From Chloroflexota bacterium (lineage in GTDB: Bacteria > Chloroflexota > Anaerolineae > Anaerolineales > Villigracilaceae), in contig QMIW01000029.1 in assembly GCA_024434165.1 (NCBI GenBank), forward strand, positions 1 through 45,644: 45,644 bases of DNA. The letters are read 5' to 3'. Below, piece by piece: positions 4,629 through 20,063 of this stretch (its first letter is position 1; the number at the start of each line of letters is the position of its first letter). The translations under genes and the position numbers were made by a program. Under the pieces are notes generated by a model. The model saw only the letters and a list, made by a program, of their open reading frames with translations, was not told the origin of the DNA and did no database searches.

Positions 4629-6389
4629 TTATGCCTTGCCTATTTCCTTCAAAAACTTTTCCTTATTCGCCGAGCGTGCCGTCTTGCCGCTGGAAGTTTT
4701 GATGATCCATTTATCGTCCACCACTTTGACGTGGCGCAGGGCGATGGCGGAACTCTTTGTGACGTGTTTGCGGATGGCGTCAGCGATGGCTTCCTGCTCG
4801 GCGGGGTCTTTCGTGTCGGCTTCGGCGATGATGACCACTTCCTCGGTGCCTTCCTCTTCGTCGTAGATGCCGAAAGCAACCGTGCGCCCTGCGTGGACGC
4901 CGTTAACTTCGCTGGCGAGCGCCTCCAAATCCTGCGGGTACACATTCTTGCCGCCTACGATGATGAGGTCTTTCTTTCTTCCTGAAACATACAACTCGCC
5001 ATCCGCGATGTAGCCATAATCGCCAGTGAGATACCAGCCACTCATAGCAACGCTCCCGCTGCCGTCCTCGGCGGCGGGGAAAGTGCCCAGCATGGGTACG
5101 CCGCCTTGAGCAGGCAGGTTTTTGATTGCCGCTTCGGTGGCGTCGGGGCGGTTGAAGTATTCGGTCAACATGCAGTCGCTTTGCACGGCGATCTCGCCCA
5201 CGGTGCGGTCTGGCAGGTCGTTGAACGATTCATCCACCACGCGGATTTTCACGTTGGGCAGGGGACGCCCGGAGGAAGTCATCTTTATGGCGGGCTGACC
5301 AGGCTTGGGCGGAGTCGCGAGGCGTTTGGCCATGAAGGTCTCGCGGTCAATTTCATCCACAACGGGGATTCCATCCAGCGGGCTTTGAGTCACAGCAAAG
5401 ACGTTTTCCGCCATGGCATAACACGTTTGCAGCGCGGACTTCCTCAAGCCGTAGGCTGAAAATTTTTCAAAGAAGAGGTCGTGGCTTTCCACATGCACAG
5501 GCTCAGAGCAGTTGATGACGGCGCGCCACGAAGAGAGGTCAACGCCTTCGAGATTGCGTTCGCGGATTTTGTGAGCGCAAAAGTTGTAGGCAAAGTTCGG
5601 CAGCCAGGTGAGCGTGCCTTTGTATTGCGAAACGGATTGCAGGAGGCGATAGGGCGCGCGCACCCAATCGAACGGGGACATTTTGACCAGCGGGATGCGC
5701 AGAAGGATCGGCATGATGAAACAGGCGATGAACCCCATATCGTGATACAGCGGCAGCCACGAAACAATGACGTCGCTGGCGGGGTCGAGGCGGATGGCTT
5801 TGCCGTACGCGTCCATTTGATTCAGCACCGCGCGATGCGAAAGCGCCACGCCTTTTTGCAAACCCGTCGTGCCTGATGAATGCTGCAACACGACGATGTC
5901 TTCGGACGATGATTTGAAACCTTGCAGGGTTTCAAAGTTCGGTTCCGCCTCCGCTTCGATTTGACTCGTGAGAATCACATGGCGGACGGAGTCACCCTCC
6001 ACCAGCGCGCCGCGTACTTCGGCTTCAAATTCGGGATAGGTGACGATGGTGCTCGGCTTGGTGATGGAGATGAGCGAAGCGAGGTCGGCGCGGTATTTTT
6101 CGGGCGCGAGTTTCTCGGTGAGGAACGGCATGATGGAGGGAATCGCGCCGTGCAGGATCGCGCCCCAGAACGAATAAACGAGGTCTTCGCCGTGCTGGAG
6201 AATCAGGATGACCACTTCACCGGGTTTGATGCCTTCGCGGGCATACGTCAATGCAAAACGGTTCGCGCCGCGAATCAGGTCGCGGTAGGTAAGCGGCTTG
6301 TCGGGCTGTGCCGCGTGCTGGAGGATGATGCTGGTCTTGTCGGGGACGTCCTGATAACTTTGCTGAAGGAGGTTGGGGAGAGTGGTCAT
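4629..6389 (-). CDS. Fatty-acyl-AMP ligase (FAAL)-type AMP-binding enzyme
   Basis: The 586-residue adenylate-forming enzyme shows the AMP-binding loop HSSGTTGLQKGV, the FAAL-typical LPLYHDMGF, an acyl-pocket motif NCSEPV, YAMAENV, the Y-L-T-G-D motif, GRKKDLIIVGGKNVYPQD, and the C-terminal catalytic lysine (K569 in TSSGKTAR). Family members activate a carboxylic acid to acyl-AMP and pass it to an acyl carrier protein. Here the carrier protein gene lies 95 bp upstream on the same strand. With the MBOAT and SGNH genes further upstream it would play the DltA-like role of loading the carrier, but with a fatty or other acyl group rather than D-alanine. The exact acid is not known. The upstream spacer carries an inverted repeat and no clear Shine-Dalgarno. 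Confidence 0.92.
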   Translation of the reverse strand: MTTLPNLLQQSYQDVPDKTSIILQHAAQPDKPLTYRDLIRGANRFALTYAREGIKPGEVVILILQHGEDLVYSFWGAILHGAIPSIMPFLTEKLAPEKYRADLASLISITKPSTIVTYPEFEAEVRGALVEGDSVRHVILTSQIEAEAEPNFETLQGFKSSSEDIVVLQHSSGTTGLQKGVALSHRAVLNQMDAYGKAIRLDPASDVIVSWLPLYHDMGFIACFIMPILLRIPLVKMSPFDWVRAPYRLLQSVSQYKGTLTWLPNFAYNFCAHKIRERNLEGVDLSSWRAVINCSEPVHVESHDLFFEKFSAYGLRKSALQTCYAMAENVFAVTQSPLDGIPVVDEIDRETFMAKRLATPPKPGQPAIKMTSSGRPLPNVKIRVVDESFNDLPDRTVGEIAVQSDCMLTEYFNRPDATEAAIKNLPAQGGVPMLGTFPAAEDGSGSVAMSGWYLTGDYGYIADGELYVSGRKKDLIIVGGKNVYPQDLEALASEVNGVHAGRTVAFGIYDEEEGTEEVVIIAEADTKDPAEQEAIADAIRKHVTKSSAIALRHVKVVDDKWIIKTSSGKTARSANKEKFLKEIGKA

Positions 6390-6395
6390 GGTTGG

Positions 6396-6481
6396 ACGAT
6401 TGACGATGGACCACGGACGATGGAGGAGGAAATCATGGTCAATACCCTTCGGGTACGATGTCGTCTATGGTCTATCGTCAT
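6396..6481. repeat. Imperfect inverted repeat built from GGACGATGGACC-like words
   Basis: The spacer between the carrier protein and ligase genes holds GACGATGGACCACGG on one side and the near-complement ATGGTCTATCGTCA on the other, giving a long imperfect hairpin. The same word set recurs at 7761-7808. It looks like a dispersed palindromic intergenic element rather than a gene. Confidence 0.6.
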
Positions 6482-6484
6482 TTT

Positions 6485-6730
6485 TTACTTGCGGGAGGAA
6501 ATAAGGGCAGCCAATTGATCGAGATTATCGAACGTATCCGCGTTCAACTCGGTATCTTCGATGCGCACGCCGAAGGTATCTTCGATGAAGAGAGCGAGGT
6601 CCATCAGACTGAACGAATCGATCAGCCCGCTGGAGATGAGCGCTTCGTCCGCAGCGATGACTTTGTTCGGCTGCTTGAGGATTTTTTCGGCAATGAACTT
6701 TGAGATGGGAGCGATGATTTCGGTGGACAT
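6485..6730 (-). CDS. Acyl carrier protein
   Basis: The protein has 81 residues from ATG 6730, chosen because AAAGGA lies just upstream; an ATG seven codons earlier is less likely. It is acidic and helical with the phosphopantetheine attachment motif GLIDSFSLMDL, where S39 is the expected modified serine. Its carrier fold continues through FIEDTFGVRIEDTEL. As a carrier between the neighbouring acyl-AMP ligase and the MBOAT acyltransferase it would correspond to DltC. It is not placed near fatty acid synthesis genes, which argues for a dedicated role in the envelope acylation cluster. Confidence 0.93.
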   Translation of the reverse strand: MSTEIIAPISKFIAEKILKQPNKVIAADEALISSGLIDSFSLMDLALFIEDTFGVRIEDTELNADTFDNLDQLAALISSRK

Positions 6731-6740
6731 TTTTTCCTTT

Positions 6741-6812
6741 TCACTGGTCACTGTTTACTGCTGACTGATTACTGAGTCACTGATTACTGGTCACTGATTA
6801 CTGAGTCACTGC
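6741..6812. repeat. Short tandem repeat of ACTGATTACTG words
   Basis: Three exact ACTGATTACTG copies start at 6764, 6779 and 6793, embedded in related TCACTGGTCACTG words. The array fills the spacer between the SGNH lipoprotein gene and the carrier protein gene and overlaps the stop codon of the former (6806-6808). It is low-complexity, non-coding DNA. Confidence 0.75.
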
Positions 6813-7735
6813 TCTTCCAACCCTCTCCTCACCGCATCCAACGCCTGCAAAGCCGTGAGGTTGCGCCAGGGCCAGCCGCTGAGCATATTATCGGGCTGGT
6901 CGAAGAAATTGCGCGCAAACGAAAGATGAAAGCCGTCGTTGAATTCAATGGAATGACCCTGATTGGGCAAGGGCTGAAGCGCCGCCCAAAAGTTCCACAA
7001 CGGGATGTCGTATTCTACGGCAATTTCAGCGATTTCGGCATTGATGCTGTGATCGCCTTCGAGATTGTCGCCCTTGGTGGCGAGGATCGGCACCACACCC
7101 TGCTCGATGGAATACTCGACGATCTGGCGCATGTACTTGCCATAATCGTCCGCGGGGCGGCCGTTGAAATTCGTTTCGAGGCTGATCAGCGCGATGCTGG
7201 GATTGTGCAGGCGGAATTCACAGGCAATCGGCGTTTCGCCCTTTTCGCATTGCTTCGGGTCAGCCCGCAGCGGCGTGAGGATGGCGGCGACATTATACCC
7301 GTCCCGCATGGCAAGGCTGGTGCGCGAAAACGAACCTTCGTAATGATCAATCGTTTCCTGCAAGTAGGCATATTCCTCGCCGAGGCTGTACCAGCCTTCG
7401 TGATCGAAGTCCACGAGGTAGAAGCCAGTGTTGGTCTGGCAGTCGCCCACTTTGGAGAAGTGTGTCGGGTCGCGTCCCAGTTCCTGTCCGCGTTTGTAGA
7501 TTTCGCGGGCGGTGTCGGTCACGGTTGGCACAATGGGCAGGGATTTCCATTCGTCGGGTGCAAGCGTGGGGCGCGGCGTGGCGGTGGCTTCCATTGCGAC
7601 AACAACTTCCGTTGCCGCTTCGGTCGCTTCCACAGGCGCGGGCGTGGATTCCATTTCAGGTTGGGATGTCGCTGGCGCGCTGGTACAGGATGCCAGCAGG
7701 ACAGCCAGCAGTAAAAAGATGGATCGAACTTTCAT
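6806..7735 (-). CDS. SGNH-hydrolase-like lipoprotein with a Cys in place of the usual catalytic Ser
   Basis: The 309-residue protein has a lipoprotein signal peptide with lipobox LLASC (C17) and a Thr/Pro/Glu-rich linker to about residue 65. Then comes an SGNH-like domain. The first block reads KVGDCQT (G97-D98-C99), where GDS is expected. The last block has an Asp-x-x-x-His arrangement in NDGFHLS. A good Shine-Dalgarno (AGGAG) precedes ATG 7735. It is exported and probably anchored on the outer face of the membrane, within the acyl-transfer cluster. It may accept or hand on the acyl group, or have lost hydrolase activity. That it belongs to the SGNH superfamily is inferred from motifs only. 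Confidence 0.8.
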   Translation of the reverse strand: MKVRSIFLLLAVLLASCTSAPATSQPEMESTPAPVEATEAATEVVVAMEATATPRPTLAPDEWKSLPIVPTVTDTAREIYKRGQELGRDPTHFSKVGDCQTNTGFYLVDFDHEGWYSLGEEYAYLQETIDHYEGSFSRTSLAMRDGYNVAAILTPLRADPKQCEKGETPIACEFRLHNPSIALISLETNFNGRPADDYGKYMRQIVEYSIEQGVVPILATKGDNLEGDHSINAEIAEIAVEYDIPLWNFWAALQPLPNQGHSIEFNDGFHLSFARNFFDQPDNMLSGWPWRNLTALQALDAVRRGLEEQ

Positions 7736-7760
7736 TCAAACTCCTGTCAACAAAAGATCA

Positions 7761-7808
7761 TGGACGATGGACCGTAGACCGTGGTCAATCGTCCGTCGTC
7801 CATCGTCA
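7761..7808. repeat. Inverted repeat related to the 6396-6481 element
   Basis: TGGACGATGGACCGTAGACC is followed by a near-complement ending GTCCATCGTCA, forming an imperfect hairpin between two SGNH-type genes. It shares its word set with the element at 6396-6481. Its end overlaps the stop codon of the upstream gene (7806-7808). Confidence 0.6.
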
Positions 7809-8909
7809 TTTACATGCTTCCAAAATATACGGCGCAAGACTCTCCGCCAGCAATTTCTCTCCCGCAGGCGTGAGATGGATTGCGCTGTTGGTGAATTCAT
7901 TTGCAGGCACGATGTCCCACAAGTCCACATACGTCCAGCCATTTGCTTGGCTCAACGAAGTCATGATCTCGCGGTAATCGTCATACGCCCAGCGGGGGTA
8001 GAAAAAATTATAGCGGATGTCGCTGTTCGCGCCCGAACTTATTAACATCGGCTCATTTACGAGCAGCATGGGTGTCTCGCCCACCAAATTGAACCCCGCT
8101 TCCAACGCGTTGATGGCAAGTTGGTCTTCGGTCAGCGGCGCGGTTAGGTCGTGATAACTTTCGTCCGCTTCGAAATCGGTTTGCGCCTTTTCATAATCGG
8201 ACGGATAGACCTGGTCAATGCCCGTCGCCGCCCACATCACGCCGTAGATTTGCAGGCGGAAGAAGTCCGCCCATGCGCGACGGTCGCCAATGAAGGTTTT
8301 ACCCCAGAACGATTTGACTTCGAAATTGGGATCGTTCGCCTCGACTCTTAACTGGTAGTTGGTCGCCAGTTCCCGAATTTTTTCCTCGTTGTGAGCCACC
8401 AGCGGCGTGGACGTTTGCTTCTCCAGCGGGAACGCGTCGAGCGTGGTCATCCAGATGATGAGGTCAGGGTCGTATTGCTTTGCGTACGAAAGCAGCATCA
8501 CATCTTTAGTCAATGAGATGGTCGGGTACCCCAAGTTATACGCGCGGACATTTTTTCCGCAGGCGTTGAGCTTGGCTTGGTTCAATTGCCCCGCGAGCGT
8601 TTCTTCGGGCTTGAGCAGCGTCCCCCACACAGACGAATCTCCAACAATGATGACACGGAATTCATCGTCCGCTTTGGGTGTGCCGTGAATAACGTGCGAG
8701 GCAAACATCGCATCGAGGTCGAAGAGGCTGAGGTTGTAGGATTGTTTTGGATTCTCGCCGAAGGGCAATCGCTCCCGCCCTGGGTAGAGGACGTTGTATA
8801 GCGAGAATTGTCCAACCTGCGGCTGCCATGCGGCAATGACGAGGTTGAAGAGGACGAACAAGAGCAGTCCCTTGATGAGGACGTTGAGGGGTTTGGTTTC
8901 TTGATTCAT
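7806..8909 (-). CDS. Membrane-anchored SGNH/DltD-like acyltransferase partner of the MBOAT
   Basis: The 367-residue protein has one N-terminal membrane anchor (residues about 11-28). An extracytoplasmic SGNH domain follows, with the nucleophile block VGDSSVWG (S92), a middle block RAYNLGYPT, and a C-terminal His block NSAIHLTPAGEKLL. This is the layout of AlgX/J- or DltD-type proteins that work with MBOAT acyltransferases and move an acyl group to a cell-envelope acceptor. It lies about 100 bp downstream of the MBOAT gene on the same strand, with a palindromic repeat between. The acceptor polymer is not evident. Confidence 0.85.
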   Translation of the reverse strand: MNQETKPLNVLIKGLLLFVLFNLVIAAWQPQVGQFSLYNVLYPGRERLPFGENPKQSYNLSLFDLDAMFASHVIHGTPKADDEFRVIIVGDSSVWGTLLKPEETLAGQLNQAKLNACGKNVRAYNLGYPTISLTKDVMLLSYAKQYDPDLIIWMTTLDAFPLEKQTSTPLVAHNEEKIRELATNYQLRVEANDPNFEVKSFWGKTFIGDRRAWADFFRLQIYGVMWAATGIDQVYPSDYEKAQTDFEADESYHDLTAPLTEDQLAINALEAGFNLVGETPMLLVNEPMLISSGANSDIRYNFFYPRWAYDDYREIMTSLSQANGWTYVDLWDIVPANEFTNSAIHLTPAGEKLLAESLAPYILEACK

Positions 8910-8920
8910 AAGAGTTTCAT

Positions 8921-9013
8921 GTCATTGCGAGGGCGCTCTTGCTCTTTGCCCGAAGCAATCTCCTGATAATTGTGAGGTTGCTTCGTCGGGAAGATCACCC
9001 TCCTCGCAACGAC
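8921..9013. repeat. GTCATTGCGAGG palindromic intergenic element
   Basis: The element begins GTCATTGCGAGGGC and ends CCTCGCAACGAC, with an inner inverted pair CGAAGCAATCTC and GAGGTTGCTTCG. Similar GTCATTGCGAG elements occur at 11065-11147 and, as a half copy, at 13628-13660. This word is known as a dispersed MITE-like repeat in several bacterial groups. Confidence 0.8.
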
Positions 9014-9014
9014 A

Positions 9015-10448
9015 TTAATGGACTCCAAACAATTTCAAAATCACTTGCCATGAAATAGCAGGCGATGATAATGCAAAGAATATCCAGCCAATGACGACGA
9101 AATGAAAGGTGAACAAAATGCCACTGATATTGAGCGCGGCTTGTCTTGTTGGCGTCGTCGCCCATGCGGCGGCTTTGACTTTGGTCATATCATTCCAGCG
9201 GTTGTGGATGAAGAGTCCCAGCCCGTGCCATAAGCCCCAGAGGGTGAAGTTCCAGGTCACGCCGTGCCAGAAGCCGATCAGCAGCATGGTGGCGACTTGG
9301 GTCAGCAGAATCATCATCGGGATAGAAAGCGGTTTCTGCCAAGACCTGAGCCAGCGGGTGATGGGATTAAAGAAGTAAGCGCGGAACCACTGCGTGAGAG
9401 TCATGTGCCAGTTGTTCCAGAATTGAGTCAGGTTGGGTTTGAGGTAGGGCGAGGCGAAATTTTCAGGGAGTTTGATTCCGAGCAGCTGCGCGATGCCGAG
9501 AGCAATGTCGGTGTAGCCGCTGAAGTCGAAGTAAATTTGAAAGGCGTAGGCATAGACGATGACCCACATCCAAAACGTCGAGGTGACTTGGGTTGCGTTG
9601 GTGTCGTTCAGGGCAATGAGCGCCAGCGCATCCGCGATGACGAATTTTTTGAATAAGCCGAGGAGTAGGCGTTGACCTGCGGAATAGAAGGTTTCAAGAT
9701 TCAGACCTGCAAAGGGAGCGCGCAAGTCTTTGATGAAACGTTCGAGGCGGTCAATGGGACCGGCGGCGAAGGCGGGGAAGAAGATGACATAGGTGATGAA
9801 CTCGCCCACGTCTACGGAGGGGAAGCGACCGGATTGTTTATCACGGATAGTGTGGATGAGACGAAAAGCGACGTAGGAGAATCCCAGCCAACGAAAGTCA
9901 TTCGCAGAGACGTTGGTCAGTGATTGACCGGAGAGTGTGCGAAGGAAAGATGCGAGCCAGAGAGATAGGTCGGGAATTTTGATGAGTAGAAAAAGCCCGA
10001 TGGTTAGAACCAGAACCACCGTTAAGAAAGAAGCGCTGAAACGTGTCAGACGAGATAAAACTATCAGCGTCAGTCCAGTCACCAAAAAGATGAGGAGAGT
10101 CGTTTCGAGTTGGGGCGGGCGTGAGGCGGTGAGGAGTTGAAAGTCTGTGGAGAGGAAGCGGGTGAGGTTGAGGAGTAGGACGACGCCAGCGACGACGGCG
10201 AGGATGATGATGTTTTTGCGTTGCTTGCGGGTTTCGTCGTCGGCGGTGATGAACCAGGTGAGGACGACGAGGACGAGTGTGGCGAGGGGAGTGAAGAAGT
10301 CGGCGCCGCGGATGGGGAGGGCGGGTTGCAGCCAGAAGATGACGACGACGCTGGCGATGAGCATGAACCACGTTCTGCCATGGGTGCGGAAGGTCGTTGC
10401 CCAGAGGAGCGAGGCGGCGGCGAGAATCAGGATGTTTTCAAGCGCCAT
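9015..10448 (-). CDS. MBOAT-family membrane O-acyltransferase (AlgI/DltB-like), lacking a C-terminal tail helix
   Basis: The 477-residue polytopic protein shows the MBOAT core: FDFSGYTDIALGIAQLLGI, the FWNNWHMTLTQWFRAY block, and the catalytic histidine block FWHGVTWNFTLWGLWHG (H395). It would carry an acyl group from a cytosolic carrier across the membrane to an extracytoplasmic partner. Its start codon directly follows the stop of the 38-residue microprotein gene. It ends at LKLFGVH, without the extra helix and the aromatic-Ile-Tyr tail that the second MBOAT (14716-16113) has. That tail is supplied by the microprotein. Substrate unknown. Confidence 0.93.
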   Translation of the reverse strand: MALENILILAAASLLWATTFRTHGRTWFMLIASVVVIFWLQPALPIRGADFFTPLATLVLVVLTWFITADDETRKQRKNIIILAVVAGVVLLLNLTRFLSTDFQLLTASRPPQLETTLLIFLVTGLTLIVLSRLTRFSASFLTVVLVLTIGLFLLIKIPDLSLWLASFLRTLSGQSLTNVSANDFRWLGFSYVAFRLIHTIRDKQSGRFPSVDVGEFITYVIFFPAFAAGPIDRLERFIKDLRAPFAGLNLETFYSAGQRLLLGLFKKFVIADALALIALNDTNATQVTSTFWMWVIVYAYAFQIYFDFSGYTDIALGIAQLLGIKLPENFASPYLKPNLTQFWNNWHMTLTQWFRAYFFNPITRWLRSWQKPLSIPMMILLTQVATMLLIGFWHGVTWNFTLWGLWHGLGLFIHNRWNDMTKVKAAAWATTPTRQAALNISGILFTFHFVVIGWIFFALSSPAISWQVILKLFGVH

Positions 10449-10565
10449 TTAGAAGCCTTGATAGATCCACGTCGGGCTCGAGTCTGCGGTGAAGATGACG
10501 AGGGCGATGAGGATGAGGCAGAGGAGGAGGGCGAGGAGGTTTTCGCGGGTGAAGATTTGTTTCAT
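10449..10565 (-). CDS. DltX-like one-helix microprotein (38 residues) ending in WIYQGF
   Basis: A 39-codon reading frame, read by hand, lies between the lipoprotein and MBOAT genes; its TAA is immediately followed by the MBOAT ATG. The product starts MKQIFTREN, has one hydrophobic helix (residues about 10-26), then DSSPT and the terminal W33-I-Y-Q-G-F38. DltX, the microprotein of D-alanylation operons, has the same size class, one helix and a C-terminal FIYNEF-type motif that is proposed to relay the acyl group between DltB and DltD. The second MBOAT in this window carries the same kind of tail (FIYFQF) fused to itself. No Shine-Dalgarno is obvious. Identification rests on position, topology and tail motif. 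Confidence 0.78.
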   Translation of the reverse strand: MKQIFTRENLLALLLCLILIALVIFTADSSPTWIYQGF

Positions 10566-10570
10566 GTTTT

Positions 10571-10650
10571 TTAACCACGAAGGGTCACAAAGGTACACGA
10601 AGGAAGAGCTTTAAAACCTTAGTGACACTTCGTGACCCTTTGTGGTAAAT
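10571..10650. repeat. CCACGAAGGGTCACAAAGG inverted repeat
   Basis: ACCACGAAGGGTCACAAAG on the left is mirrored by CTTCGTGACCCTTTGTGGT on the right, with an AT-rich centre. It occupies the whole spacer between the lipoprotein and microprotein genes. Related inverted repeats occur at 16924-16995 and 20064-20129. Confidence 0.75.
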
Positions 10651-10654
10651 GTTT

Positions 10655-11041
10655 TTAACGTACGCCGCAGACGAGCCAGTCCCCGTCTTGTTCGATGACT
10701 TCGTAGGTGCGGTCGGCGAGGTCGAGGGATTGAGGTTCGCCGTTGTAGCTCATGTTGAGCATGCCCGTGCAGTCGACGAGGGTTTTGTCGCCATCTGCCC
10801 CAGATTCGGCACAGGACATTTCGTCTATGGTGACTTCGACGAGGGCGAAGGAGTCGAGCTCGATCAGGGCGTCATCTTCCCAGTCGGCGCAGGAGTTGGA
10901 GATGAGGGCGGCTTGGTCTTTGCTTGCAAGGGCGGTGATGTAGCCTTCAACGGCGGTGGTTGCTCCGCCCGAAGCGGATGCGCCGCAGGCGGAAAGGAGA
11001 ATGCTCAGGGCGAGCATGAGAATAGTGAGTTTGGTGCGCAC
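10655..11041 (-). CDS. Small secreted lipoprotein of unknown function
   Basis: I choose the GTG at 11041 because GGAGG stands 5 nt upstream; the ATG at 11053 would place that ribosome site inside the gene. The 128-residue product has a signal peptide with lipobox LLSAC, then a single small domain starting TTAVEGYITALASKDQAAL. This resembles NTF2/DUF4878-like lipoproteins. Three or four cysteines in the mature part (NSCADW, EMSCAES, VDCTGM, WLVCGVR) could form disulfides. It is the first gene of the minus-strand acyl-transfer cluster, separated by an inverted repeat. A link to acyl transfer is only positional. Confidence 0.8.
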   Translation of the reverse strand: MRTKLTILMLALSILLSACGASASGGATTAVEGYITALASKDQAALISNSCADWEDDALIELDSFALVEVTIDEMSCAESGADGDKTLVDCTGMLNMSYNGEPQSLDLADRTYEVIEQDGDWLVCGVR

Positions 11042-11064
11042 AGGTTCCTCCATGGGTTAATTAC

Positions 11065-13690: not shown

Positions 13691-14707
13691 TTAATCGGTA
13701 AAAATTTCTTTTAATCCCTCGGCAACCAGTTGGGTGAAGAGGATTTTGCCTTCCTCGTTCAGATGGACAACGTCGCGGAAGAGGTCGCGGGTGAAGCGCG
13801 GGTCGTCGCCGAAATCGAGCAGGTACGCATCCTGTTCTTTCAAGTAGGTTCGCAGTGATTCGAGATATTCTGCCAGCCTGGAATCACTGGCTGAGTCGGC
13901 GGTCTCCACCTTGATGCGGACAAAAACCAGTTTGATGCCGTTCTCCTGTGCGATGCGAATCATCTCCGGCAGGTAGGAATCGCCGACCTGCGAAGCGAAA
14001 TCCAGCCGCTCCGGGGTGTAGAGATACGACTCCGCCGCGCCGACCGCATCCACGAGGGCTTGGGGTTCGAGGTCTGCGCCGGCGAAGATGTCGCCGAGGG
14101 AGTAGTCCACGCAGTTTTTGTCGCAGCCGAATATGGGCGGGAGGAGGTAGCGGATGCCTGCGTCAATGCGGCTGCGGATTTGCGTGCGAGTCACATAGAG
14201 CGGGAAATATTTTTCGGCGGCGCGTTCCAGCGGGTTCATCAGATTGACGAACGATTTTTGGATGAAAAGCGGCTCGTTGCGGCGCGCGTATTCGTCCACC
14301 AGTTCAAAGTAACTGCCGTGGACGCGGTATCCCGGCGCGGTCAGGATGGAGTCGCGGAAGACGATCAAAACGTATTCGGGTTTGTAGGTTGACTCGGCGA
14401 TGTTGTTCTTCAGGATGAGGTACCAAAGCGCGGATGCCGAGCCGGGGATGGCGATCTTGTAAACGGACTTTCCGGTTTGTTCTGCCAGCGCTTCGGTATC
14501 CAGACCGAGTTCGAGGGTCGAGTCGCCCATGACGACGATTTGCGGCTGGCGCTCCTCCAGGTATTTCAGATGGTCAGTGCGGACGCGCCGGTCGGTGACG
14601 GGACCCGGTTCGCGGGGAAAGGTCAGGTCGTAGGAGGGCGGGAGCAGAATCGAAGCGACGATCAGGAGGATGGTCAGGATCAGCCCGAATTTAAGAAAGA
14701 AGCGCAT
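13691..14707 (-). CDS. Membrane-anchored SGNH-hydrolase-like acyltransferase partner of the second MBOAT
   Basis: The 338-residue protein has one N-terminal helix (residues about 5-23), then an exported SGNH domain with the nucleophile block VMGDSTLELGL (S63), the second block IAIPGSASALWY and the C-terminal block FRDVVHLNEEGKIL carrying Asp and His. The start at 14707 follows the MBOAT stop by 8 bp and has AGGGA upstream, so the pair is surely co-transcribed. As in DltB/DltD and AlgI/AlgJ pairs, the MBOAT would deliver the acyl group and this protein would place it on an external acceptor. Confidence 0.88.
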   Translation of the reverse strand: MRFFLKFGLILTILLIVASILLPPSYDLTFPREPGPVTDRRVRTDHLKYLEERQPQIVVMGDSTLELGLDTEALAEQTGKSVYKIAIPGSASALWYLILKNNIAESTYKPEYVLIVFRDSILTAPGYRVHGSYFELVDEYARRNEPLFIQKSFVNLMNPLERAAEKYFPLYVTRTQIRSRIDAGIRYLLPPIFGCDKNCVDYSLGDIFAGADLEPQALVDAVGAAESYLYTPERLDFASQVGDSYLPEMIRIAQENGIKLVFVRIKVETADSASDSRLAEYLESLRTYLKEQDAYLLDFGDDPRFTRDLFRDVVHLNEEGKILFTQLVAEGLKEIFTD

Positions 14708-14715
14708 GTCGGTCC

Positions 14716-16113
14716 CTAAAACTGGAAGTAGATGAAGTCCGAATTCGTCGAGTTGACGTAAATCACAATCAGGGCGGCGGCGATGGCGTAAAAGGCGGCT
14801 TGGAGCCAGGTGCCTTTGGCGTGTTGGTCAATGAGGTGGTTCACCAACAACGGAATGGAGTACGCCAGCGCAGCCGTAAAGGTGATGAGGGCAAGCACGA
14901 ATTCGCTCCGGCTTGGGATGAACGGCGAGTGGATGAAAATGTTGACCAGCCAGTCGAGCGACGGCGCGCGGAACATCATCCAGCCGAAGACGATGAAGGC
15001 AAACATCGCCAGCCAGGCGAAGAAGGTCGTGATTTTGGAGGCGGGCTTCCAGTCGCCGCGGATGCCGATGAGCTGGTAGGCGGCGATGAGCGCGCCGTAA
15101 TACAAACCCCAGACGACGAAGTTCAACCCCGCGCCGTGCCACAGCCCGCTGACGAACATGGTCGCCAGCGGCGGGATGGACATGGCGAGTTTTTCGTTCA
15201 GTTTGAAGCGCAGTAAAGCGCGGCGGATGGGGAAGAAGACGTAATCCCTGAGCCAGGTCGAGAGGCTGATGTGCCAGCGGTTCCAAAAGTCGGTGGGGGT
15301 GAGGGAAAGGTAAGGCTGGCGGAAGTTTTCGACGGTGTTGAAACCCAGCAGAAATGCGATGCCGCGCGAAAGGTCGGTGTAGGCGGAGAAGTCGGCGAGG
15401 ATCTGCAGGGTATAGCCAAGCGCTCCGCTCAACAACAACAGACCCGACGGCTGGGCAAACCCAAAGACGCGGTCCACCAGGATCTGCACGCTGTTGGCGA
15501 CGACCAGTTTTTTGAAGAAGCCCATCAGGATCAAAGGAAAGGCTTGCGCAAGGTTTTCGGTCTTCCAACGGCGTGCGGCTTCGAATTGCGGCAGCAAATT
15601 TTGCGGGCGGTCAATGGGACCCGCGACAATCTGCGGGAAGAAGGAAACGTACAAGGCAAAGTCCACGAGCGAATGGGTCGGTTTGAGCGTCCCGCGCGAA
15701 ACATCCAGCATGTAGCCCAGTTTTTTCAGCGTGAAGAAGGAAAGCCCGGCGGGGAGCAGGATGCTCGCCAGGAACAGGTCCGGCTCGACGCCGAGCGCGG
15801 TGAGAAACGCAATGACATCGTCCGCGAAAAAGTTGTAATACTTGAAGAAGGCGAGTACGCCCAAATTGAGGAACAGGCTGAGCCAAAGGAAAGAACGCCT
15901 GCGTTCGGGCTGGAATGCCATGCCGCGCGCAAGCGCGAAATCCGCGAGGGTGGATGCGCCCAGCAAAACGGCATACCAAACCTGTAACGAGCCGTAAAAA
16001 TAATAACCCGCCGCCAGCAAAAGCAGGTTTTGCCAGCGGCGTTCGCGCACCGTCCAGTAGAGAACAAAGACGATGAAAAAGAAAAGCAGAAAGTCGTAAC
16101 TGGTGAACGCCAT
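14716..16113 (-). CDS. Second MBOAT acyltransferase, with a fused C-terminal helix and FIYFQF tail
   Basis: The 465-residue polytopic protein has the MBOAT core: LADFSAYTDLSRGIAFLLGF, WNRWHISLSTWLRDYVF and the catalytic block LWHGAGLNFVVWGLYYG (H326). It ends with an additional hydrophobic helix and the residues NSTNSDFIYFQF-stop. That tail is equivalent in topology and motif to the microprotein encoded upstream of the first MBOAT. The start follows the stop of the PIG-L deacetylase gene by 3 bp. It forms an operon deacetylase - MBOAT - SGNH. No acyl-AMP ligase or carrier lies in this cluster, so it may use acyl-CoA or share the carrier of the first cluster. Confidence 0.94.
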   Translation of the reverse strand: MAFTSYDFLLFFFIVFVLYWTVRERRWQNLLLLAAGYYFYGSLQVWYAVLLGASTLADFALARGMAFQPERRRSFLWLSLFLNLGVLAFFKYYNFFADDVIAFLTALGVEPDLFLASILLPAGLSFFTLKKLGYMLDVSRGTLKPTHSLVDFALYVSFFPQIVAGPIDRPQNLLPQFEAARRWKTENLAQAFPLILMGFFKKLVVANSVQILVDRVFGFAQPSGLLLLSGALGYTLQILADFSAYTDLSRGIAFLLGFNTVENFRQPYLSLTPTDFWNRWHISLSTWLRDYVFFPIRRALLRFKLNEKLAMSIPPLATMFVSGLWHGAGLNFVVWGLYYGALIAAYQLIGIRGDWKPASKITTFFAWLAMFAFIVFGWMMFRAPSLDWLVNIFIHSPFIPSRSEFVLALITFTAALAYSIPLLVNHLIDQHAKGTWLQAAFYAIAAALIVIYVNSTNSDFIYFQF

Positions 16114-16116
16114 GCC

Positions 16117-16851
16117 CTACTGTTCCGATTTCTCCTCCGAGATCTTCATCACCCGAAACGCCTCCGCATATTCGAACTCCTTGTCCTTTGCGTCTTCCCT
16201 CGCCCAGTCGCGCATCCACTTAGCGACCTCTTCCACGTTGACCTGGCTGGCATGTTTGCCCAGCGCTTCGATTTTGATCTCGATGGTCCCGCTGATGTCC
16301 ACCCACGTATCGGGATTTTCCACACCGTGAACGTACAGCCGTTTGACGTTGTGCGGTTCATACCCCGCTGTGAGCAGGTCGGTGAAAATGAGCCTTGTCC
16401 CCGCCGAAGGGAAGACCGCCTCGCAGGCGGCTTGCGCCGCGGCGCGATGGTCGGGGTGATTGACGTACTCATTGCCGTAGAACCACGCTTCGGGATTGCC
16501 CGCCAGCACCACATCGGGCTTGTATTGGCGGATGAGCCGTGTCAGGTCTTTTCGCAGTTGGATGGTCGGTTCGAGTTCGCCGTCGGGGTAGCGCAGGAAA
16601 ACCGTCTGCTTCACCCCAAGCGCCTCATTGGCAGACAGCTGCTCGGTCTCGCGGAGGCGAGCCAGTTCGGGCTTGTACTCCGCTCCCCTGCTTGGGTCGT
16701 TCGAGCCGGAATCCCCGCTGGTGATAACGACGGAGATGATCTCACAACCGGCGCGCGACCATTTGGCGAGCGTCCCGCCGATGGAAAATTCCTGGTCGTC
16801 GGGGTGGGCATGGATGCTCATGGCAATTTTGGGGATGTACTCGTCACTCAT
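16117..16851 (-). CDS. PIG-L (LmbE)-family N-acetyl deacetylase
   Basis: The 244-residue protein shows the zinc-binding HPDDQEFSIGGTL near the N-terminus, VVITSGDSGSND, and the distal NHPDHRAAA with the third metal ligand. These are the hallmark motifs of the PIG-L/MshB/LmbE deacetylases, which remove acetyl groups from N-acetylglucosamine-type substrates. It is the first gene of the operon with MBOAT2 and its SGNH partner. This suggests, as inference, that an amino sugar is deacetylated before or alongside acylation. No signal peptide is visible, so it should act in the cytosol. Confidence 0.92.
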   Translation of the reverse strand: MSDEYIPKIAMSIHAHPDDQEFSIGGTLAKWSRAGCEIISVVITSGDSGSNDPSRGAEYKPELARLRETEQLSANEALGVKQTVFLRYPDGELEPTIQLRKDLTRLIRQYKPDVVLAGNPEAWFYGNEYVNHPDHRAAAQAACEAVFPSAGTRLIFTDLLTAGYEPHNVKRLYVHGVENPDTWVDISGTIEIKIEALGKHASQVNVEEVAKWMRDWAREDAKDKEFEYAEAFRVMKISEEKSEQ

Positions 16852-20061: not shown

Positions 20062-20063
20062 TT

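Follow-up and report, generated by a model that had tools for sequence, protein, structure and literature searches.

A conserved Chloroflexota gene cluster that joins a fatty-acyl-AMP ligase to a DltB-like MBOAT, a tyrosine-motif microprotein and an SGNH protein: a candidate acyl relay

A cluster of seven genes on the minus strand of contig QMIW01000029.1 (45,644 nucleotides, analysed at full length and called the window below), from a Chloroflexota bacterium of the Anaerolineales family Villigracilaceae (assembly GCA_024434165.1), brings together the kinds of proteins that in Bacillota carry out the D-alanylation of teichoic acids through the Dlt system. In order of transcription, the genes code for a small lipoprotein, a one-helix microprotein, an acyltransferase of the MBOAT family (MBOAT1), a membrane-anchored SGNH protein, an SGNH-like lipoprotein, an acyl carrier protein (ACP) and a fatty-acyl-AMP ligase (FAAL) (Table 1). 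A first-pass annotation of the window had picked out the ligase, carrier, MBOAT, SGNH protein and microprotein, and open reading frame positions and Pfam matches confirm these five on one strand at the coordinates that it gave; it placed five of the seven genes correctly and overlooked the SGNH-like lipoprotein and the lipoprotein upstream. The named loci closest to the source genome belong to assemblies of Anaerolineales and other Chloroflexota. We describe the parts of this cluster, their conservation and linkage, and the grounds for viewing them as a probable carrier-fed acyl relay.

Table 1. Genes of the cluster, listed in order of transcription, with window coordinates.
Feature	Coordinates	Strand	Remarks
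Small lipoprotein, 132 aa, with lipobox	10655..11053	-	Head of cluster; NCBIfam Rv0361-type match at 25 bits, below the cut-off of 37
One-helix microprotein, 38 aa, ending WIYQGF; proposed DltX-like acyl shuttle	10449..10565	-	Tyr35 at 10463-10461
MBOAT1, DltB-like acyltransferase without C-terminal motif; His395 conserved	9015..10448	-	Pfam MBOAT, E 7e-21
Membrane-anchored SGNH protein; proposed final acyltransferase, in DltD's place	7806..8909	-	Ser92 and His345 invariant
SGNH-like lipoprotein, Cys99 (GDC) where SGNH enzymes have Ser; Asp267 and His270 kept	6806..7735	-	Conservation and profile alignment
Acyl carrier protein (ACP), phosphopantetheine Ser39 in GLIDSF	6485..6730	-	PF00550 (PP-binding), E 2e-7
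Fatty-acyl-AMP ligase (FAAL), 586 aa	4629..6389	-	Pfam AMP-binding, E 2e-47; FAAL-type insertion

The acyltransferase, its microprotein and the SGNH proteins

MBOAT1 is best classed as a DltB-like, motif-free MBOAT. At E ≤ 1, two DltB proteins (E 1e-44 and 3e-44) make up all its sequence relatives in the PDB, and its predicted fold also agrees best with DltB (Z 25.5 over 384 residues, 3.6 A), human MBOAT7 being the next family (Z 20.7). The NCBIfam DltB model TIGR04091 scores MBOAT1 at 220 bits, with a cut-off of 375, and gives 160 bits to MBOAT2, a second MBOAT of the window. His395 is conserved in 75 of 76 MBOAT1 rows, and none of the 67 complete MBOAT1 relatives bears a motif at its own C-terminus, the position at which PatA-type MBOATs carry theirs. 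In a tree of 32 rows, the MBOAT1 relatives (12), the DltB proteins (7) and the MBOATs with a fused motif (8 labelled) each form a group of their own, that of MBOAT1 standing beside that of DltB; being unrooted, the tree does not show whether the split microprotein found here and DltX share an origin.

The microprotein can be regarded as a real gene. It has a single hydrophobic helix with a basic N-terminal start and the C-terminal motif WIYQGF, and its stop codon abuts the start of MBOAT1 (TAA-ATG); in relatives the two genes are likewise in contact, overlapping or separated by a few bases. Searches of Chloroflexota yielded 72 named loci with MBOAT1 (denominators given below for loci are those with enough flanking DNA), and the microprotein is present in 69 of the 70 testable ones, the single miss being a run of N. 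The pattern W[IV]Y[QL]G[FY] ends 97 of 99 microprotein-similar rows drawn from loci L004-L105, which are not independent genomes as one genome may supply two rows; the remaining two rows come from one genome with a run of N, and all 97 readable rows have the motif tyrosine. Ala12, Pro31, Trp33, Tyr35, Gln36, Gly37 and Phe38 are invariant in 24 chosen rows. Across the last eight codons, the 301 differences between 69 loci and the window are concentrated at third positions (229, against 31 at first and 41 at second positions). In a 400-genome sample of the phylum, a microprotein model matched 35 genomes, 34 of the same class and one weakly, inside a 662-aa frame elsewhere.

The motif endings of DltX from S. 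aureus (FIYNEF), of a Niallia microprotein (YIYNDF) and of fused MBOATs (FIYFQF, FLYFEF, FIYANF and similar) show that the first motif residue is here a Trp; the DltX pattern is otherwise preserved, with W in place of F or Y. The DltX family PF12459, which in a control matches the proteins of B. subtilis and L. lactis, finds no match in the genome, and a profile search of the PDB with the microprotein returned no matches. For a structural view, the two proteins were joined in a tethered chain of 516 residues by reading as glycine the stop codon that separates microprotein and MBOAT1. This model has a mean pLDDT of 88 with the MBOAT folded well, and successive ten-residue blocks of the microprotein score 69, 72, 53 and 50; because of these low values, no claim is made on contact between microprotein and MBOAT1.

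The SGNH protein begins with an N-terminal helix and is assigned to the SGNH fold on the strength of its predicted model (pLDDT 78), as its Pfam GDSL match is weak (E 2e-4, under the Pfam cut-off). Ser92 and His345 are invariant in 68 of 68 sequences. Its numerous fold matches lie close together, at Z 12.6 to 14.7 in the 50 listed; four of these are DltD entries (Z 12.6-13.4), which give the longest alignments (242-253 residues), and no PatB, AlgJ or AlgX was recognised among the 50, a listing that is no test of absence. The DltD family PF04914 detects the control proteins of B. subtilis and L. lactis and nothing in this genome, hhalign gives the SGNH protein a probability of 0.75% against six DltD proteins and finds nothing secure between it and the SGNH-like lipoprotein, a profile search of the PDB yielded no matches, and none of 31 SGNH rows matched an NCBIfam model.

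Two lipoproteins accompany these genes. In the SGNH-like lipoprotein, present in 36 of 45 loci, Cys99, Cys163, Cys172, Asp267 and His270 are each conserved in 46 of 46 sequences, and its profile aligns over the Asp-His region with the thioesterase TesA (E 9e-4). Several copies of it lie near one cluster in each of L067, L071 and L079. The small upstream lipoprotein is present in 62 of 66 loci having more than 700 nt upstream, and it belongs to the cluster.

MBOAT2, about 4 kb from MBOAT1, is of the fused-motif type and part of a second MBOAT system (window 13691-16851, minus strand), which comprises a PIG-L deacetylase, a DUF1574-like SGNH protein and MBOAT2 itself with FIYFQF at its own C-terminus. 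L037, L043 and L055 have these three genes upstream of the microprotein-MBOAT1 pair, and L176 has them near ACP-FAAL. The source genome also encodes a third MBOAT (L001 1066-2502, contig C154), whose ending, AIYGNF, is a variant of the motif.

The ligase and its carrier protein

FAALs activate a free carboxylic acid as acyl-AMP and then load it onto the phosphopantetheine of an ACP. The ligase of the cluster is assigned to this group from its closest relatives and its architecture. When it is compared with the PDB, 18 matches (242 to 122 bits) precede the first 4-coumarate:CoA ligase (105 bits) and FadD13 (86 bits). Seven of these 18 are named as FAAL or as FadD32, FadD23 or FadD28, and the rest bear generic names (acyl-CoA synthase, polyketide synthase, McyG, amino-acid adenylation domain), some of which we take to be FAALs as well. 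What sets FAALs apart from other ligases, in the account that part of a review gives of them, is a FAAL-specific insertion (PMC11837247). The window ligase carries this insertion as 46 residues (331-376), the length also found in the FAAL of L201, and the alignment continues through it in known FAALs. The same region spans 19-20 residues in five proteins of the CoA-ligase type (one beside the L201 FAAL, four of the source genome), and the insertion is missing from four DltA proteins and one DltA-like ligase. In the neighbouring ACP, the phosphopantetheine serine is conserved in 39 of 39 sequences.

Linkage and co-occurrence across Chloroflexota

The scatter of these genes among relatives, raised as a concern in the first-pass annotation, is found only between two tight modules, namely microprotein-MBOAT-SGNH and ACP-FAAL. 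In the first, 59 of 62 loci have an SGNH gene no more than 3.5 kb after MBOAT1; in the second, ACP and FAAL are adjacent in 28 of 29 loci. These 29, of 45, have the modules joined, with ACP-FAAL about 8 kb or less downstream, and the other 16 have them separate. A check at the level of genomes (FAAL at E ≤ 1e-80) located a FAAL for all 16 loci without one nearby and for six of eight with shorter flanks. Of 23 such distant FAAL places, 20 had neighbourhoods that were read, and the ACP was adjacent in 18, about 3 kb off in one and absent in one. A compact set of microprotein, MBOAT1, SGNH, ACP and FAAL lacking the SGNH-like lipoprotein occurs in L207, L078 and L086, so that this lipoprotein is not needed for the core.

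Co-occurrence was examined in a sample of 61 relatives, in which MBOAT1 was called at E ≤ 1e-120 (39 genomes) and FAAL at E ≤ 1e-60. The microprotein is present in 37 of the 39 MBOAT1 genomes versus none of the 22 others, and both misses (G041 and G059) have an MBOAT1 truncated at the edge of a contig. FAAL is present in 38 of 39 versus 5 of 22, a tally that counts G001 as a cut piece and leaves out a 38% FAAL in G040; the Fisher p values computed for these counts take no account of kinship between the genomes. In two of the five FAAL genomes without an MBOAT1 call the genes run into a contig end (G025 has the same cluster, cut, and G013 a cut FAAL); among the remaining three, a fused-motif MBOAT adjoins FAAL-ACP in G036, whereas FAAL-ACP stands alone in G009 and G010 has a FAAL piece only.

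Named species are among the carriers. In Longilinea arvoryzae (L090), a single locus holds microprotein, MBOAT1, SGNH, lipoprotein, ACP and FAAL. In Levilinea saccharolytica, the microprotein-MBOAT1 pair lies at the end of a contig, and ACP-FAAL is found in another place. The pair of Leptolinea tardivitalis has no SGNH match nearby, and FAAL and ACP of this species lie elsewhere, about 3 kb apart. Two genes intervene between this FAAL and ACP (L173 7722-10630), one for a flippase-like protein (LPG_synthase_TM) and one for a 658-aa protein that matches no Pfam family. Some genomes appear to hold more than one set. The genome of L092 has, besides that locus and a FAAL-ACP with a fused-motif MBOAT, a second complete microprotein-MBOAT1-SGNH-ACP-FAAL set (L207), and the genome of L079 has in L163 what looks like an incomplete second copy of the cluster, with the microprotein, cut pieces of MBOAT1 and SGNH, ACP and FAAL in order.

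The intergenic gaps of the cluster (6390-6480, 6733-6804, 7736-7805, 8910-9014 and 10566-10650) appear to be filled by short repeats, two of them being judged for repeats by eye. The gap at 6733-6804 holds a tandem array, a 35-nt repeat at 10569 recurs at 20062, and the core of an element near ~9000 is found in 16 of 206 loci, at least three of which are copies of this same place.

A candidate acyl relay and its alternatives

In the Dlt system, according to the passages that PMC12148441 devotes to it, the MBOAT moves the acyl group from the carrier to the tyrosine of the DltX motif, from which it passes to the serine of an SGNH protein; in PatA, as outlined in the same passages, the group travels from acetyl-CoA to a tyrosine at PatA's own C-terminus. 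Active-site residues of DltB are set out in a portion of PMC11035591, where the role of DltX is still termed unclear. The Chloroflexota cluster shares with DltXABCD a ligase, a carrier, a motif-free MBOAT, a separate one-helix microprotein and an SGNH protein, as well as the aromatic-x-Y-x-x-F motif at the C-terminus of the microprotein and an MBOAT closest to DltB by sequence and fold. It differs in having a FAAL instead of DltA, in a microprotein and an SGNH protein that miss PF12459 and PF04914, in the placement of the microprotein gene before the MBOAT gene and not before dltA, in the additional lipoproteins and in its phylum. Known here from its genes alone, the cluster is best read as one that would work like Dlt but is not Dlt, because the models for DltA, DltX and DltD do not recognise its proteins and the FAAL insertion is present in its ligase.

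We consider it probable that the cluster encodes a carrier-fed transmembrane acyl relay running from FAAL through ACP and MBOAT1 to Tyr35 of the microprotein, then to Ser92 of the SGNH protein and finally to an acceptor on the outside; its chemical steps, the acyl group and the acceptor are what we infer. The FAAL would turn a free carboxylic acid, which is most likely a fatty acid, into acyl-AMP and load the phosphopantetheine of the cluster's ACP. MBOAT1 would receive the acyl group from the ACP at the inner face of the membrane and hand it to Tyr35 in the microprotein's WIYQGF, this C-terminal motif presumably entering the active-site funnel of MBOAT1 from the outside. The microprotein would then unload onto Ser92, and the SGNH protein would transfer the acyl group to a hydroxyl on an acceptor outside the cytoplasm, which is most likely a glycan of the cell envelope. 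The first-pass annotation had likewise envisaged a Dlt-like relay in which a FAAL replaces DltA. Family tests, motif conservation, synteny and co-occurrence bear out that part of its proposal, and the fatty-acyl donor and glycan acceptor that it named keep the conditional standing just given.

Several observations weigh against this relay. At the level of single proteins, the aspartate expected three residues before the His, invariant with it in six aligned DltD proteins (Asp358 and His361, S. aureus numbering), is absent from the SGNH protein, where Ser342 takes that position in at least 90% of 31 rows. Alignment of the microprotein with five DltX-type proteins by hhalign covers the last seven residues only, at a probability of 15%, and its residues 27-36 have pLDDT below 50 in the tethered model. 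No NCBIfam model scores the ligase above cut-off, and a model named for CoA ligases (350 bits) ties with a FAAL model (346 bits). At the level of loci and genomes, an SGNH gene was not found near MBOAT1 in L077, L087 and L088, and ACP-FAAL lies outside the cluster in the 16 loci noted above. Two of the 24 genomes checked at E ≤ 1e-80 yielded no FAAL, G049 has MBOAT1 and no FAAL match at E ≤ 1e-60, and the FAAL of G015 contains four in-frame stops. Some distant FAALs adjoin other MBOATs (a fused one in L167/L206, an MBOAT2 relative in L176). FAAL-ACP of the same type also pairs with fused-motif MBOATs. Finally, no glycan gene lies within the window's cluster.

This last point bears on a variant of the scheme that is possible, if unlikely, in which the relay operates as described and either the group carried comes from some acid other than a fatty acid (short, hydroxy, branched or aromatic) or something other than a glycan accepts it, be it a lipid, a small molecule or a lipoprotein. 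Membership in the FAAL family leaves the chain length open, substrates ranging from C4 to C18 in the section of the review cited above that covers them (PMC11837247), and the two conserved lipoproteins of the cluster could be acceptors or handlers. Around the expanded clusters L064, L070, L090 and L168, too, no glycan gene was noticed in an inspection by eye, without Pfam. Against the variant, the MBOAT-SGNH pairs named in PMC12148441 modify extracellular polymers. In L206, moreover, a sister FAAL-ACP-MBOAT set is neighboured by glycosyltransferase families and a GDSL-like protein, which hints at glycan acceptors. The source genome itself encodes four LCP-family proteins and gives one borderline TagF-like match, so a wall glycopolymer is possible. 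Taking the fatty-acid and glycan version of the relay to its furthest extent, it is tempting to entertain the doubtful idea that an Anaerolineae glycan, of the wall or the surface, is esterified with fatty acids by the carrier-fed MBOAT-microprotein-SGNH relay to form the outer layer of an envelope free of lipopolysaccharide, a counterpart of the mycobacterial mycolate layer made by unrelated transferases.

It is very unlikely that MBOAT1 and the SGNH protein carry out ordinary O-acetylation from acetyl-CoA, with FAAL-ACP as an unrelated neighbour. The 16 loci with separate modules would fit such an arrangement, as would G049 and the two FAAL-less genomes of the set of 24. However, while the MBOAT-SGNH O-acetylation pairs (PatA/PatB, and the alginate and cellulose ones, considered by name only) resemble the present cluster in pairing the two proteins and in their acyl-tyrosine shuttle motif, the acetyl-CoA type (PatA/AlgI) has the motif fused to the MBOAT, whereas MBOAT1 resembles the DltB type, with the motif on a separate gene, accompanied by a carrier protein and a ligase. 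MBOAT-SGNH pathways other than Dlt have neither a carrier nor a DltX-like microprotein, in the words of the relevant passages of that 2025 paper (PMC12148441). The association of FAAL with MBOAT1 genomes also argues against mere neighbourhood, as does its recurrence beside other MBOATs. ACP-FAAL directly adjoins a fused-motif MBOAT in L197 (FIYIQF), L206 (FLYVQF) and L201 (FVYQEF, with a more distant FAAL), a pairing that supports FAAL-ACP as a donor for MBOAT relays generally. A strict rule, in which a carrier protein goes with a split microprotein and CoA with a fused motif, was dropped because of these same three loci.

Harder still to credit is a true Dlt system with a diverged ligase, in which D-alanine or some other amino acid is added to a polymer resembling teichoic acid. 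The gene set and the MBOAT do resemble Dlt, and the ACP weakly matches the DltC model (23 bits). The DltA model TIGR01734, however, gives the window ligase 21 bits and the best protein of the genome 289, so that none passes the cut-off of 560; the FAAL insertion and the silence of the DltX and DltD models, both of which recognise their B. subtilis and L. lactis targets, point the same way. A plasmid of Klebsiella electrica offers a comparison. It emerged from a search outside Chloroflexota, in a plasmid collection, with MBOAT1 and S. aureus DltB as queries (136 records each, 30 and 40 of them listed, 18 fetched in all), and it bears between insertion sequence (IS) elements a Dlt-like set (L195 1083-5135) whose microprotein is annotated as hypothetical. 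As in the window, an SGNH protein (annotated DltD), a 40-aa microprotein ending FEYQKF, an MBOAT, an AMP-binding protein and an ACP stand side by side. The ligase there, in contrast, is scored best by DltA models, at 390 and 384 bits, with neither score reaching the cut-off of its model (the latter value compares with the 21 bits of the window ligase). It lacks the FAAL insertion, and the MBOAT is very distant. Carrier-fed sets thus exist outside Bacillota, though with a DltA-like ligase.

The least plausible reading holds that the SGNH proteins are acyl-removing esterases by which the cluster turns a modification over, notably with the Cys-SGNH lipoprotein as a deacylase or second acyl carrier; the TesA alignment and the invariant Cys99, Asp267 and His270 of that lipoprotein lend themselves to it, but the compact sets do without the lipoprotein and the first SGNH protein occupies DltD's place in 59 of 62 loci.

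The carrier-fed relay that we favour would extend a known principle. Acyl export that is fed by a carrier and runs through an MBOAT and a separate tyrosine shuttle was previously described for D-alanine, and among the papers searched we found none joining FAAL with MBOAT or SGNH proteins; a conserved set in another phylum with a FAAL as its putative loader would add a new variant to the MBOAT-SGNH acyl relays. Stand-alone FAAL-ACP pairs of natural-product clusters such as JamA/JamB also place the FAAL beside its cognate ACP, in the examples treated in a part of PMC11837247. Unlike those pairs, FAAL-ACP is conserved here together with an MBOAT, a microprotein and an SGNH protein, and no polyketide or peptide synthase was recognised among the genes read beside FAAL-ACP. 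If the relay is real, different ligases can feed the same type of machine, and FAALs would gain a new connection with the building of the envelope. The envelope of Chloroflexota is described, in the pertinent part of PMC13319060, as atypical and layered, with a chemistry that is unclear. The proposed relay would give this envelope a testable handle, and cultured hosts, e.g. Longilinea arvoryzae, Levilinea saccharolytica and Leptolinea tardivitalis, are available.

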